Below, one piece after another: positions 25,967 to 30,715 of a stretch of DNA of 64,000 nt; within the stretch, counting starts at the first letter, position 1, and each line of letters begins with the position of its first letter. The stretch is taken from the NCBI RefSeq assembly GCF_003719195.1, contig NZ_CP024996.1:4960001-5024000 (forward strand), in the 5' to 3' direction. Below the pieces are notes generated by a model that saw only the letters and a program-made list of their open reading frames with translations, was not told the DNA's origin and ran no database searches. The position numbers were made by a program, and so were the translations under genes. The DNA is from Herbaspirillum rubrisubalbicans. Its GTDB lineage: Bacteria > Pseudomonadota > Gammaproteobacteria > Burkholderiales > Burkholderiaceae_D.

Positions 25967-26001
25967 ACCGCTGGCACCGTGAGGTGTTGGCGGTTTTTTT
26001 T
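25967..26001 (+). terminator. Rho-independent terminator of the BMP operon
   Basis: ACCGC (25967-25971) pairs with GCGGT (25990-25994) around an inner GCACC/GGTG stem, followed by eight T residues. A second GC stem lies just upstream (CAGGCGCG/CGCGCCTG, 25921-25944). This marks the left border of the accessory region. Confidence 0.8.
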
Positions 26002-26136
26002 GGGTAGGCTACGTCCAGTAATGAAGTCGCAGGTATATGCCAAGGCTCGACATGGCAAGTTGAACAATCACCTATATCCAGAATTTCGAAGGGTATCTCA
26101 GTATCTCAATCTGGTTGTCGTCACAGATGGCAACTC

Positions 26137-27378
26137 TTATGGATTTGCTGCAGACCTCGGAAGCAAAAGCATTACGTGGTCCTCAGTAGCGTCAAAGTCG
26201 GGACGGACACCGTTATCTTCTAACATTAGCGGCACGATCTTGTTGCGCACGCCCATTCCACGAGCATCCACATAACCATAATCACGCAGTACCTCTACGA
26301 TGATCGGGTTGCGTGGTGACCTCTGACCCGCAAGTACTTTCTCAACCGTCATGGAGTTCTGTAGCGCACCGGGGCTTACAACCTCAAGCCTGTCGGCATA
26401 TGACACGACTTCTACCTCCAACGCTCGGGTCCAGTCGCGGTGAGCCAACGCGTTGATGATCGACTCGCGTAGCGCTCCAGGCGGATAGTGCCAAGTCCGT
26501 TGGCGCCTCAACCCGTCTGCCAACTCGTCGTGTTCCACACTGACGAATGGTTGCATCCTGTTCATCAGGTCTTCGATCAACCCGCGTTCGATCAACTCTC
26601 TGGAGCCCCCTTGCGAACCGAAGCGACCAACGAGAGGAGCGTCCAGGATAGTGTCATCTAGCGCCCTGTAGGTCTTGTCATCCCCATCGAACGCCATCCA
26701 ACGCACACCTGCCTGCCGCAGGAAGCGACGCGGCGTGCGACCAAACAAGACTAGGCCCGCAATCGTACATACAGGGGTGGCGACGCCCGTATCAGTCATG
26801 AATCCCAAGCCAACCATGCGTCTGAGCCATGCATCATCCGTCTCAGGCAACTCGCGGTCTCCTGCCAGTGTCAACAGGTAGTCCTGCAGGCGCTCTCGAT
26901 CGAGTGCCTCGAAGGCCGCGCCAGAGACAGGTAGCATTTCGCTATGCAGCATTCCGCCGCTTTCAAACAGTCGGGCTTGCTGCTCACGGGTGGCTAGGCG
27001 TGATGTGCTGCCGACCCGCACATAGATATCTTCACGTCCATTGTGTCGGAGCACGTAGGGCTTGGACGTACCCGTAGCAATCGAGATCACGGCGACTCGA
27101 TTGCCATCATCAAAGGTGACGACCTCGTAGAACGGCAACAGCAGAGGATGAACATAGCGACCGAAAACGGTGTCCATGACCCAGGTTTCGAGGTCGCCAC
27201 GTTGAATACCGGATATAACGCCATCGTCTTCGACCCCGAGCAGAATCATGCCCCCTCGCAGATTCGCCAACGCCACGATTTCTTTGGCGAGTTGTTCTGG
27301 ACGAACGTCATCCCGTTTGAACTCCACGCCCGAGTTTTCTCCATTCGCAATGATCTCCAGAAGCTCTGTTCTCAACAT
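26137..27378 (-). CDS. AlbA_2 (Schlafen-type) domain ATP-binding protein
   Basis: This 413-residue protein has an N-terminal AlbA_2/Schlafen nucleic-acid-binding domain (about 1-130, with NSGVEFKRD and LRGGMILLGVEDDGVISG). A C-terminal GHKL-like ATPase segment contains RESIINALAHRDW, followed by GYVDARGMGVRNKI, the layout of COG2865 'RecG-like' regulators. It starts 12 bp downstream of the PHP-SMC ATPase gene and is the third gene of that operon. The region has visibly lower GC than the flanking core genes. Alternatives are a transcriptional regulator or a nucleic-acid-acting effector. Confidence 0.8.
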   Translation of the reverse strand: MLRTELLEIIANGENSGVEFKRDDVRPEQLAKEIVALANLRGGMILLGVEDDGVISGIQRGDLETWVMDTVFGRYVHPLLLPFYEVVTFDDGNRVAVISIATGTSKPYVLRHNGREDIYVRVGSTSRLATREQQARLFESGGMLHSEMLPVSGAAFEALDRERLQDYLLTLAGDRELPETDDAWLRRMVGLGFMTDTGVATPVCTIAGLVLFGRTPRRFLRQAGVRWMAFDGDDKTYRALDDTILDAPLVGRFGSQGGSRELIERGLIEDLMNRMQPFVSVEHDELADGLRRQRTWHYPPGALRESIINALAHRDWTRALEVEVVSYADRLEVVSPGALQNSMTVEKVLAGQRSPRNPIIVEVLRDYGYVDARGMGVRNKIVPLMLEDNGVRPDFDATEDHVMLLLPRSAANP

Positions 27379-27390
27379 ATCCTGTTCTCA

Positions 27391-30063
27391 CTAGAAGCCA
27401 TACTTTTCCTTGCGCTGGGAGAATGCCTCCCTCCCCCCTTCGAGAATCTCTGCGACACGCTCACGTATCTCCGGTATGTCAATGGAACCCTGAGCTTGCG
27501 TGGGCATCTCGGCGTGGGAGTCGGAAGCTGAGAAAATACCGATCCACTCTGCATCACCGAAAACCGGGATGTTTGCGTTGTGCGTGGCGAATAAGAACTG
27601 CCGCTCCGTCTTGGCGCTACGTAGTTGCGTGACGATTCGCTCGGCGATAAAAGCGTTGTCCAGATTATCCTCAGGTTGATCCATGATCAGCGGGTCGTCA
27701 TTCTCCAACAGGAGTAGGTGCAGAATGGCTGTGCATTGCTGACCAGTTGACAAATGCGTCAACGGTTTGTAAACATCGCTTTGATGTGCAATATTGAGTT
27801 CGATCAGAATGCGATCCTGAAGGTCGATTTCTTCGAGCTCGAGAACTAAGCTCCGATCTAGCCGTGCCAGGGCTTCGACGACGGAATTCTGCATACCCCA
27901 ATCCCAGGTCAATCTCCTAATGGCATCTTCGCCGTCACGAATGGCCTTTACCAGTGCGGGCACGGTCAGCTCATCTCCAACCTGTTCTATCCAAGCAAGT
28001 TTTTTCTCGCCAAGCCCCGGCACCTGTAGCAGAAACTCTTTCAATGTGTTTCGCTGCCCACCGATTTTCAGATTTAATCTAAGCTTTCCGTCGAGCTTGC
28101 GATTGAGCGCCTTGACTGCCGTCCGAAGTTCGTCACTGCGCTGGTTTCTAATACGATAGAACTCATCCAGAAGATTTCTGCGCTGGGCCTCTAACTCGGC
28201 CAAAAACTTATTTACGGTTTCCACACGCGTCTCGCTGGGCCGAATCGACTCAATCTCACGCAACAGTTCCTGATACGCGCGACCGACGTCGCGGCCAGGT
28301 TTTCCGGAAAACACCGGCAGGCTGGAAAAAACTTTTTCCAAAGACTCGGATTCCGCGCTGAGATGGCTCTTCAACTGCGCTTGATGAGCCTCAGCTACCA
28401 CGTCAGCTTCAGCGAGCAACTTGCGCAGAGCGAAAAGATGTGTAGTGAAGTCCTTGCCAAGCATGTCCAGCGTGCTACGTATGGATGCCAGAAGCGGCGC
28501 ATGTGGCAGCCCTTCCAGCGCCTTCTCACTCAGAAATGTCGTGTCCGGCAAGCTATCCTCCAGCACCGACAATCCTTCGCCGACACGCCCCATCTCTTCA
28601 CTGATCCGCCTTGAAAGCTGGCGCTCACGTTCAAGCAGCGGCACGAGCGCAAGCTTACTTTCCAGACCTAGCGATTTGAACTGTTGCACCTGTTCGGTCA
28701 ACTTAGGCAATCGTCCAACTTGGATTTGCAATTCGTCCTTCTGCCGCGTTGCAGCCAGCAGCTTATCGCGATTCTCAGTCAGTCGTTTGGCGATGGCTAC
28801 CAACTCGGTGGCCAATGAGCTACCACTAGGAAGGAACCGATTTAGAATCGCAGTCTGGCTTGCAGAATCGCGGGCCAGCTCAAAAATTTCGTTCTGACCA
28901 TAGATTTCGATGCGAGGCAACAAGTCGCGTGGGTGCAGTGTGGAGACCTGCCCCTGCTCATCCTTTACGATGGGCGGTTCGCCATAGCGACGGGAAACCA
29001 GATAGCGTCTACCATGCAACGTTCGGGAGATCACCTCCAATTCGATACGACCACCTGCACCGAGATTGGCTTTGACGATTTCATCATGTTGCCGACGAGC
29101 AGACGCCGCACGTGGTGGAACGTCCAGCACGTAACGCAGAGACTCGACCAAGGTCGATTTCCCGGTGCCGCGTCCACCAACGACTGCGTTCAGGTGCGCT
29201 GATAGCTCAATACTGATGCCATCCAGATAGCCTCCATGAAAGCGCAAGTTCTGCAGTCGGGAGTAATGCGCATCTGCCAGGGGACCAAGACGGATGCGCG
29301 ACTCGGGGTCTTTGAAAGCAGTTACGAAGCTTTCAAAACTCGGACGCGTCATCTTGATCCAGCAACTGGCGCGAGAATCAGCGATGTCCTCCGGCTTGGC
29401 GACGTCCTTTGCATTGAGTAACGCGATGCGACGACGCTCACGCAGATAGGCAGGATTCTTGTTGAAGACGATGTCTTTGTAGTTGGGTGGCAAATCCTCC
29501 GGAGGCCCCGGAATCTGGCCAGCCTTCACCAGTTCGTCGCTCTTCCAGATGTGTACCAATCCCCCCCCATCCTGATTGAGGCGCAGCAATCCATTGGAGC
29601 CAGTCATGTGCGCCGCATACCAGAAGCCACCGAGATCGAAGATGATTTTCGCCAAGTCGAGACAAGTCTTTTGCGAGGGCAATACTGTGTCATGCAAGTC
29701 CGTCAGATCAAGCTTTCCCAGATAGCGATTCAGTTGGTCTTTACTGGTGCCCTCAGGAAACAAGCACACCATATGAATTTTCTCGCTGGAGGCAATCTCA
29801 AACCCTGGAAACACGACGATGCCATGCGGCTCCAAAAAACGGCGTAAACCATCTATCGCGTCGACGCTTCCGTGATCGGCAATGCCTACGACCTTAATGC
29901 CCTGTGTCAGGCAGTGGTCGAGCAACTGCTGGTTGTAGGAGTCTTCATCAAGCCCGTGTTCGGTGCCGCGATATTTCGATTGGTAGCCCGAAGGATTTAC
30001 CTGAAGAGCGCAGCGCCAAAAGCGGGCAACGGTATAACTTGGCTGGCTCAATGTGTTGTTCAT
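27391..30063 (-). CDS. PHP-domain SMC/ABC ATPase (TrlF-like)
   Basis: This 890-residue protein joins an N-terminal PHP phosphoesterase-like domain to an SMC/RecN-like ATPase. The PHP part shows the metal-ligand pattern ADHGS (62-66), FPGFEI (Glu89), His97 and WYAAHM (His152). The ATPase part has Walker A GGRGTGKST (296-304), a coiled-coil-rich middle (about 420-680), signature LSTGQ (771-775), Walker B LIMDQPED (792-799) and H-loop FATHN. Relatives are called TrlF family ATPases, and a PHP-ATPase architecture is known among phage-defence genes (Ppl). ATG 30063 overlaps the stop of the small upstream gene (ATGA). Confidence 0.85.
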   Translation of the reverse strand: MNNTLSQPSYTVARFWRCALQVNPSGYQSKYRGTEHGLDEDSYNQQLLDHCLTQGIKVVGIADHGSVDAIDGLRRFLEPHGIVVFPGFEIASSEKIHMVCLFPEGTSKDQLNRYLGKLDLTDLHDTVLPSQKTCLDLAKIIFDLGGFWYAAHMTGSNGLLRLNQDGGGLVHIWKSDELVKAGQIPGPPEDLPPNYKDIVFNKNPAYLRERRRIALLNAKDVAKPEDIADSRASCWIKMTRPSFESFVTAFKDPESRIRLGPLADAHYSRLQNLRFHGGYLDGISIELSAHLNAVVGGRGTGKSTLVESLRYVLDVPPRAASARRQHDEIVKANLGAGGRIELEVISRTLHGRRYLVSRRYGEPPIVKDEQGQVSTLHPRDLLPRIEIYGQNEIFELARDSASQTAILNRFLPSGSSLATELVAIAKRLTENRDKLLAATRQKDELQIQVGRLPKLTEQVQQFKSLGLESKLALVPLLERERQLSRRISEEMGRVGEGLSVLEDSLPDTTFLSEKALEGLPHAPLLASIRSTLDMLGKDFTTHLFALRKLLAEADVVAEAHQAQLKSHLSAESESLEKVFSSLPVFSGKPGRDVGRAYQELLREIESIRPSETRVETVNKFLAELEAQRRNLLDEFYRIRNQRSDELRTAVKALNRKLDGKLRLNLKIGGQRNTLKEFLLQVPGLGEKKLAWIEQVGDELTVPALVKAIRDGEDAIRRLTWDWGMQNSVVEALARLDRSLVLELEEIDLQDRILIELNIAHQSDVYKPLTHLSTGQQCTAILHLLLLENDDPLIMDQPEDNLDNAFIAERIVTQLRSAKTERQFLFATHNANIPVFGDAEWIGIFSASDSHAEMPTQAQGSIDIPEIRERVAEILEGGREAFSQRKEKYGF

Positions 30064-30263
30064 TCCTTGCGCCTCATGGATGGCTGCGAGAGATTCGCTA
30101 CGGGTACATCAGCGCCTTCACGCAGCAATTTGTCGACTGCTTTACGCACCAGCCATGCCACACTCACATCTTCGCGTGAGGCGATCATTTGCAATGCATC
30201 CAGTTGCCGCTGCGGCAGCGTGACGGTCACTCGTTTAATTTCGGCGTCTACAGGGCGACTCAT
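30060..30263 (-). CDS. Small ribbon-helix-helix (CopG/Arc-like) protein
   Basis: This protein of about 67 residues reads IKRVTVTLPQRQLDALQMIA, then DVSVAWLVRKAVDKLL, matching the beta-strand plus two-helix pattern of ribbon-helix-helix DNA-binding proteins. It overlaps the PHP-SMC ATPase gene by four bases, so the two are translationally coupled, and it is probably the operon autoregulator or an antitoxin-like partner. The start is uncertain: ATG 30275 or 30263 are possible, and neither has a strong ribosome site. Confidence 0.7.
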   Translation of the reverse strand: MSRPVDAEIKRVTVTLPQRQLDALQMIASREDVSVAWLVRKAVDKLLREGADVPVANLSQPSMRRKE

Positions 30264-30439
30264 GGGAATGGGCATCAACTTGCATCAGGTTGCTTAATAA
30301 TACTGCATCTTGATTCAACTGACATAAAACGGAGACGGGGCACAGTTGCAAAGGTCACCCTCGAATCCAATTCGGCAAAGCCCCAGTAAAAATCTAATAC
30401 TTACTGTCCTGCTATTTGATCCCGGTGTTTTTGTTGTAC

Positions 30440-30715
30440 TCACGCCGTGATGCGCTCGATCACGGGACGTTCCAGCTTGCCGGCTTCATGCAGGTCGTAC
30501 TGCAACTGCATTCCGGCCCACAGCTCCGGGCTGGTCCCGAAAGCAGCAGCCAGGCGATAGGCCATGTCCGGCGAGATGCCGGCAGCGCCATTGACTATCC
30601 GTTGCAGGGTGACGCGGCTCATGCCTATATGCCTGGCCAATGCCGCAATTGAGCGGCCTTCGAAATAAGCTCTCAACACAGAACCCGGATGGGGTTGATT
30701 GAACATGCGTCGCAT
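30440..30715 (-). CDS. HigA-type antitoxin / XRE regulator, orphan
   Basis: This 91-residue helix-turn-helix protein begins NQPHPGSVLRAYFEGRSIA and has the HigA signature MSRVTLQRIVNGAAGISPDMAYRLA with a GTSPELWAGMQLQYDL tail. HigA proteins neutralise HigB mRNA interferases and repress their operon. ATG 30715 follows GAGAGGAG. The roughly 290 bp upstream, up to minC, contain no HigB-like frame, so this is an orphan antitoxin or the remnant of a toxin-antitoxin pair at the right border of the accessory region. Confidence 0.85.
   Translation of the reverse strand: MRRMFNQPHPGSVLRAYFEGRSIAALARHIGMSRVTLQRIVNGAAGISPDMAYRLAAAFGTSPELWAGMQLQYDLHEAGKLERPVIERITA

Follow-up and report, generated by a model that had tools for sequence, protein, structure and literature searches.

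A three-gene cassette of about 4.1 kb in Herbaspirillum rubrisubalbicans, consisting of genes for a ribbon-helix-helix (RHH) regulator, a TrlF-family ATPase and a Schlafen-type AlbA_2 protein, is real, selected and mobile. Our preferred reading, which we hold at just under even confidence, is that it arrived by horizontal transfer and may serve in defence under its own regulator, with a TrlF–Schlafen pair at its centre that acts by abortive infection through RNA cleavage.

A compact cassette in low-GC DNA

All three genes were confirmed as real, and all lie on the minus strand of the window, by which we mean the whole stretch of 64,000 nucleotides that was analysed. The features of the cassette are as follows.

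30060-30263, minus strand: RHH gene, encoding a CopG-like regulator of 67 aa counted from its ATG; first gene of the cassette
27391-30063, minus strand: TrlF-family ATPase (PHP-SMC) gene, 890 aa, with a divergent N-terminal PHP domain and an SMC/Rad50-like ATPase with coiled coil
26137-27378, minus strand: AlbA_2 gene, 413 aa, with Schlafen-type AlbA_2 and GHKL (HATPase_c_4) domains
30276-30292, minus strand: candidate operator, a palindrome (CAACCTG-ATG-CAAGTTG, one mismatch) lying 12 bp upstream of the RHH start codon
30297-30302, minus strand: possible −10 element TATTAT, close upstream of the palindrome, as read from the sequence
26004-30422, no strand: approximate extent of the inserted segment, from comparison with genus relatives

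The mechanical open reading frame (ORF) of the RHH gene begins further up than the ATG that gives the 67-aa protein. The RHH and ATPase genes overlap in ATGA, which holds the stop codon of the former and the start codon of the latter, and a gap of 12 bp separates the ATPase gene from the AlbA_2 gene; both details, together with the gene positions, had been given in an earlier note on this DNA and were borne out. Its claim of lower GC held as well, with 0.545 in the trio against 0.614 and 0.636 in the 10 kb on either side. The cassette is bordered by a BMP-type lipoprotein gene on one side and by higA and min genes on the other, names that come from a reading of the ORF list except for the NCBIfam-supported higA, and the named flanking genes include no defence systems. 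The higA-type antitoxin gene (30440-30712, minus strand) scores 81.9 bits against a cut-off of 47.7, and no higB-sized ORF is visible upstream of it.

The cassette is acquired and maintained by selection

Comparison with relatives in the genus revealed empty sites. In two of them (L132 and L133), the sequence matching window positions 25997-25999, at the end of the lipoprotein-gene region, joins directly to higA (window 30423-30440) and the trio is absent, so that the higA region occurs there without it; four others (L130, L131, L134 and L135) have neither the trio nor higA. The minC-like and lipoprotein genes are kept in genus relatives that lack the trio. The 20 listed genomes of the same genus gave no match; within the family, matches were found in 3 of 294 genomes, a figure that counts the window's own genome and one match consisting of a 100-residue piece only. 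We infer that the trio entered this lineage fairly recently, as an insert distinct from higA.

This distribution bears on whether the genes form a DNA repair or housekeeping operon without a role in defence. Such an operon would suit an SMC/Rad50-like ATPase, and some TrlF entries at NCBI carry a GO term for double-strand-break repair; however, the scarcity within the family, the low GC, the empty sites in relatives, and the presence of relatives on plasmids and inside BREX and restriction loci make this explanation highly improbable.

An alignment of 17 TrlF sequences, used to scan public genomes, returned at least 580 confirmed relatives, and the locus counts given here cover the best 80 of these, a set that leans to the window's branch. 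The order RHH-TrlF-AlbA_2 is found in the window and in three of the 80 best loci, which come from a proteobacterial metagenome-assembled genome (MAG; L039), an Aquabacterium MAG (L040) and Paraburkholderia aspalathi (L041). The window TrlF is 78–83% identical to those of the three other genomes. Nucleotide similarity to the window is confined to a region running from 26168–26228 through 30303–30310, which takes in the three genes plus roughly 45 bp ahead of them, with no similarity in the flanks over the 0.5 to about 3 kb compared on each side. In each of the four trio loci, RHH and TrlF overlap by 1–11 bp. Purifying selection acts on all three genes (pN/pS 0.12–0.26, pS 0.53–0.79, pN 0.08–0.20), the RHH gene with its orthologues in L039, L040 and L041 included (pN/pS 0.15–0.26). 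Because pS reaches 0.53–0.79 at a pN/pS of 0.12–0.26, the trio is, by this measure of divergence, an old association maintained by selection, and the shared order in three genomes, the restriction of similarity to the cassette and the purifying selection together place it beyond chance. The earlier proposal that the three genes form a unit thus stands in so far as they are conserved together and acquired, as seen from the four genomes, the confined similarity and the empty sites; as to how widely the joint conservation extends, the pair of large genes is conserved, whereas the full trio is rare (3/80 best loci plus the window).

Transposase-like ORFs follow the AlbA_2 gene in two of the trio loci, 75 bp downstream in L041 (13979-15013, a sequence reading) and about 550 bp downstream in L040 (5242-5679, Pfam DUF772). 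They represent a possible route of cassette movement.

The ATPase belongs to the TrlF family

The ATPase matches the TrlF model NF045780 over residues 13-889 at 537.2 bits, above the cut-off of 350, and its trio relatives score 550–560 bits. It had previously been filed with Ppl, a placement that the scores overturn: against the Ppl model NF042955 it reaches 160.2 bits where the cut-off is 1000, which rules out Ppl membership, and against the PADLOC Ppl model 112.8 bits. We found no published function under the TrlF family name in the open-licence literature.

The SMC-like part of the protein is supported by Pfam matches to AAA_23/AAA_21 and by SMC/Rad50/MukB/Jet/RecF/RecN-type heads in the Foldseek top 50 of an AlphaFold2 model (mean pLDDT 89.6), a search that did not show the PHP domain. 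When 80 sequences were combined in a profile, its ATPase part matched Rad50/SMC structures, and its positions 37-128 matched three PHP proteins of solved structure (E 2e-5 to 4e-4). The PHP assignment rests on these three profile matches and NCBIfam; the window ATPase has no Pfam PHP match at E 0.01, its first 250 residues alone have no match in the PDB at E 10, and a single-sequence PDB search with the N-terminal piece of the relative L006 returned no match.

Across 89 aligned TrlF sequences, the window's included, K302, H64, E89 and D220 are invariant, and H152 (88), H97 (85) and D63 (82) nearly so. The Walker A lysine K302 and the D63/H64 pair are located where the earlier note had placed them.

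A TrlF–Schlafen pair underlies the trio and recurs in defence loci

TrlF is immediately followed on its own strand by an AlbA_2 gene (−120 to +250 bp) in 63/80 best loci, and in 61 of the 75 that have at least 1.3 kb of sequence to the right. The distances of TrlF and the Schlafen protein are strongly correlated (Mantel r = 0.94, n = 57; close subset r = 0.79, n = 45; 0/5000 permutations each), a result to be taken as co-inheritance and not as contact, since the permutation ignores shared descent. The core unit is TrlF plus the Schlafen protein, a deeper association than the trio. TrlF occurs without an adjacent AlbA_2 gene in the remaining 17/80 best loci (14/75 with room), some of them about 50% identical, and adjacency was seen in 2 of 12 plasmid regions that were opened. 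With 17/80 best loci and 10/12 plasmid regions lacking the neighbour, TrlF can work without the Schlafen protein.

To survey partner systems, we used 25 seed proteins and scored matches of at least 60 bits within 6 kb on the same strand. By these rough counts, for which many of the seeds were drawn from these very loci, each of them then counting by construction, a defence partner lies near TrlF in 29/80 best loci and none is detected with these seeds in 51/80; where 6 kb is available on both sides, the figures are 19/43 and 24/43. The 29 loci comprise 11 BREX, 7 DUF1156/DUF499/SNF2, 5 type I-like, 3 type III-like and 3 Wadjet-like, and among them all three type III-like loci (L043, L044 and L113), two of the three Wadjet-like loci (L074 and L083) and several others match their own seeds; the labels of these loci rest on Pfam. 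L113 was detected solely through its methylase, L083 solely through an SbcC-like ATPase, and L062 through a BrxL match of 64 bits. AlbA_2 is adjacent in 25 of the 29 partner-bearing loci.

Annotated examples include HsdM-HsdS-TrlF-AlbA_2-HsdR on an IncC plasmid and PglX-TrlF-AlbA_2-PglZ-BrxL on a Vibrio plasmid. The relatives L027 and L050 lie embedded in restriction loci, and the window copy does not. The occurrence of relatives of the two large genes inside defence loci supports the earlier note's reading of a defence module.

Further neighbours emerged from Pfam scans of 38 hand-picked proteins, 14 of which gave no match at all. XhoI-type and FokI-type proteins neighbour TrlF in L059 and L108, respectively, both without AlbA_2. 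The operons that contain TrlF-AlbA_2 in L074 and L076 also encode a DUF2397 protein and an SbcC-like ATPase (by Pfam in L074, by sequence cluster in L076), and we take these operons to be Wadjet-like. An HsdS remnant upstream of TrlF in L069 is weakly supported at 46 bits, and similar remnants considered at L010 and L090 were dropped, the ORF having no Pfam match.

Carriage by phages was considered and rejected for the close TrlF branch: seven phage records are each below 60% identity, with the full-length ones at about 25%, and of five viral contigs two nearly full-length ones are 22–23% identical and the shorter ones 25–45%. The AlbA_2 protein likewise has 21 phage records, those listed being 22–27% identical. 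A megablast search for E. coli copies of the Citrobacter TrlF-AlbA_2 pair gave no match. Among open-licence papers, we found none that names the TrlF–Schlafen pair or uses TrlF in this sense; two contain the word TrlF, under titles on other subjects, and PMC10952713 makes no mention of PHP, Schlafen, Ppl, PrrC or AlbA.

The Schlafen-type protein is the likely effector

The AlbA_2 protein matches PF04326 (SLFN_AlbA_2) at 67.6 bits, with a cut-off of 25.3, and also matches HATPase_c_4. Its putative catalytic triad is conserved in 69 sequences including the window's (E14 in 68, E19 in 68, D51 in 66), and the three residues align to E205, E210 and D248 of rat SLFN13. Because the three carboxylates of Schlafen tRNases are retained, we consider this protein the likely effector, although the activity could instead reside in the GHKL part. 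The earlier note had cast it as an accessory, which is probably the wrong way round given the retained RNase triad and its position downstream of TrlF in most of the best loci.

A divergent PHP domain makes a nuclease role for TrlF doubtful

The HxH and DxH motifs of PHP domains provide metal ligands. The window protein carries QVN at residues 21–23 and D220-V-A in their places. Among the 89 aligned sequences, the first motif reads QxN in 79, HxH in 7, QxH in 2 and HxN in 1, while the last reads DxA in 44 (the window counted), DxH in 5 and otherwise in 40; the seven HxH sequences rank with the most divergent rows, in which the alignment is least certain. HxH and DxH occur together in L005, L006, L007, L009 and L037. 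Four of these (L005, L006, L007 and L009) reach 486–614 bits against the Ppl model but 595–636 bits against the TrlF model; they are, on these model scores, TrlF members nearer to Ppl than the window is, and not Ppl. The motif change and the presence of AlbA_2 are not strictly linked, as L007, L009 and L012 combine HxH with an AlbA_2-type neighbour.

With QxN and DxA replacing HxH and DxH, a DNA-cutting role of the window PHP domain appears doubtful, and the earlier suggestion that it serves as a sensor-nuclease is weakened. The same residues bear on the strongest alternative to our preferred reading, a Ppl-like exonuclease acting at DNA ends, in which the TrlF PHP domain would degrade invading DNA at low nucleotide pools and the AlbA_2/GHKL protein would be a regulator only. 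The sequence kinship with both Ppl models, the near-invariance of H64, E89, D220, H152 and H97, and the best loci in which TrlF has no AlbA_2 partner are all in its favour. The lack of HxH in most sequences and of DxH in the window tells against it, in a motif comparison among the 89 aligned sequences; none of 369 genomes held a Ppl sequence over its cut-off. We judge this alternative to have a minor but real chance of being correct.

The RHH protein is a probable local autorepressor

The RHH protein matches PF07878 (RHH_5) at 30.3 bits (cut-off 26) and PF01402 (RHH_1) at 24.9 bits (cut-off 20.5). The palindrome in front of its gene is recognisable in all four trio loci, beyond which the upstream sequence is unalignable; counted by hand, its arms are perfect in L039, differ by one mismatch in the window and L040, and by two in L041. 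The adjoining −10 candidate reads TATTAT in L039 and TATCAT in L041 and is absent from L040. An exact match to the palindrome occurs once in the 5.6-Mb genome. A wider RHH regulon was rejected, as we observed no surplus of operator-like sites elsewhere: at up to two mismatches there are 8 genome matches, its own site counted, against 23 for a reversed control pattern. The conserved palindrome, its single exact occurrence and the lack of a surplus elsewhere fit local autoregulation, and the RHH protein is probably an autorepressor acting at the candidate operator. The switch role assigned to it earlier is therefore probable too, the gene being the first of the cassette, overlapping TrlF in all four loci and lying behind a conserved palindrome.

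RHH proteins are common antitoxins. A toxin-antitoxin-like addiction module, in which the RHH protein would be antitoxin and repressor and TrlF and/or the Schlafen protein the toxin, would account for a small first gene that overlaps the next, and the BrnA antitoxin model gives 17.2 bits, far below its cut-off of 60. However, an RHH gene accompanies only 3/80 best loci against 63/80 for the pair, and other small DNA-binding proteins precede TrlF elsewhere, namely HTH_17 in L046 and L084 and HTH_73 in L075, so we regard an addiction module as decidedly unlikely. The RHH gene is an add-on of the window's clade and not part of the core. On plasmids, RHH relatives number 17 records, all below 60% identity. 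The HTH_73 protein of L075 (9624-9929) belongs to an ORF cluster also present in L082, L085, L088 and L027; such a protein stands ahead of TrlF in loci of Photorhabdus and Shewanella, and ahead of HsdM in the type I locus of Citrobacter.

No BREX or type I host is detected in the window's genome

At E 0.001, the window's genome gave no match for PglZ, in a search that was positive in 2 of 14 controls, and none for an HsdM-type PF02384 methylase, in a search positive in 13 of 14 controls. With no BREX or type I partner detected, the cassette appears to need no such host here. Among the trio genomes, PF02384 is absent from L039 and L040, both MAGs, and present once in L041. The sole N6_N4 methylase match in the genome (L127 1435-2346) sits between hisC- and hisD-like genes and was set aside as an orphan. 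A C5 methylase with a convergent 361-aa ORF (L128 351-2595), 2.8 Mb from the cassette, is possibly a type II restriction pair.

These searches also address the idea that the cassette is a guardian of a restriction system like PrrC, detached here and watching a resident system in trans. The C5 methylase and its convergent ORF could provide such a system, and relatives found between HsdS and HsdR, or inside BREX, resemble the position of prrC, embedded in a type IC locus, as given in PMC12707154. On the other side stand the missing PglZ and PF02384 in this genome, the his-like surroundings of its one N6_N4 methylase and the absence of PF02384 from two of the other trio genomes, and we consider a guardian acting in trans unlikely.

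Proposed mechanism and meaning

Under our preferred reading of a self-regulated TrlF–Schlafen defence cassette, the SMC/Rad50-like TrlF would sense a consequence of infection, which may be DNA ends, altered nucleotide pools or the loss of a protecting enzyme. For its PHP domain, ligand binding or no more than weak activity is the probable role. Once triggered, TrlF would license the Schlafen/GHKL protein, whose three-carboxylate site may cut tRNA or other RNA, and this cutting would stop cell growth before phage release. Bound to the promoter palindrome, the RHH protein would hold the operon low until it is needed. In favour of this reading are the frequency and correlated divergence of the pair, its presence in defence loci, the retained Schlafen triad, the QxN motif, the four-genome trio with its palindrome and the empty sites. 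Against it count the best loci in which no partner system was detected, the TrlF genes that lack an AlbA_2 neighbour, the loose link between the PHP change and AlbA_2, the possible activity of the GHKL part, the named neighbours of the window copy, which are not defence systems, and the confinement of RHH to four loci.

More tentatively, we raise the possibility that the TrlF–Schlafen dyad is a guardian that plugs into many unrelated defence systems, with BREX, type I, type III, BREX-related and Wadjet-like systems each having taken it up as a suicide back-up. The window version would then be host-free, with an RHH repressor replacing the lost link, and would form a complete stand-alone immune system. 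If a single sensor-effector pair does fit chemically unrelated defence systems, these would share a common failure signal, and the stand-alone 4.1 kb version, present in four genomes, would offer a compact means of finding that signal with neither a BREX nor a type I system as host. The cassette also lets the Schlafen domain, which is related to vertebrate tRNases, be tested as a bacterial suicide effector.

Comparison with known systems

PrrC contains an ATPase part and offers one point of comparison. In PMC12707154, it is a restriction guardian embedded in the type IC locus EcoprrI, with a tRNA anticodon nuclease in one protein. A relative of the TrlF–Schlafen pair is similarly embedded, flanked by the HsdS and HsdR genes of a type I locus; PrrC is a single protein, whereas the window pairs two proteins, has a Schlafen-type domain and lacks neighbouring restriction genes.

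Ppl combines PHP and ATPase domains and is called a single-gene system in a review (PMC12904381), according to which E. coli Ppl is a 3'-5' ssDNA exonuclease that is set free when nucleotides are depleted. The window TrlF shares partial sequence kinship with Ppl but lies in a three-gene operon.

Closest to the AlbA_2 protein are the published Schlafen-GHKL proteins, which have the same Schlafen/GHKL domain order as the window and relatives in BREX and DUF499/DUF1156 neighbourhoods. The main text describing them contains no word starting with 'PHP', and no TrlF-like partner was seen in it, whereas the window version stands alone with an RHH gene. DIP2311 (PDB 3lmm), at 20–23% identity, was deposited as uncharacterized. 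With respect to the TrlF family itself (NF045780), the window ATPase is a full-length match over the curated cut-off, distinguished by an RHH gene of its own and a palindrome.
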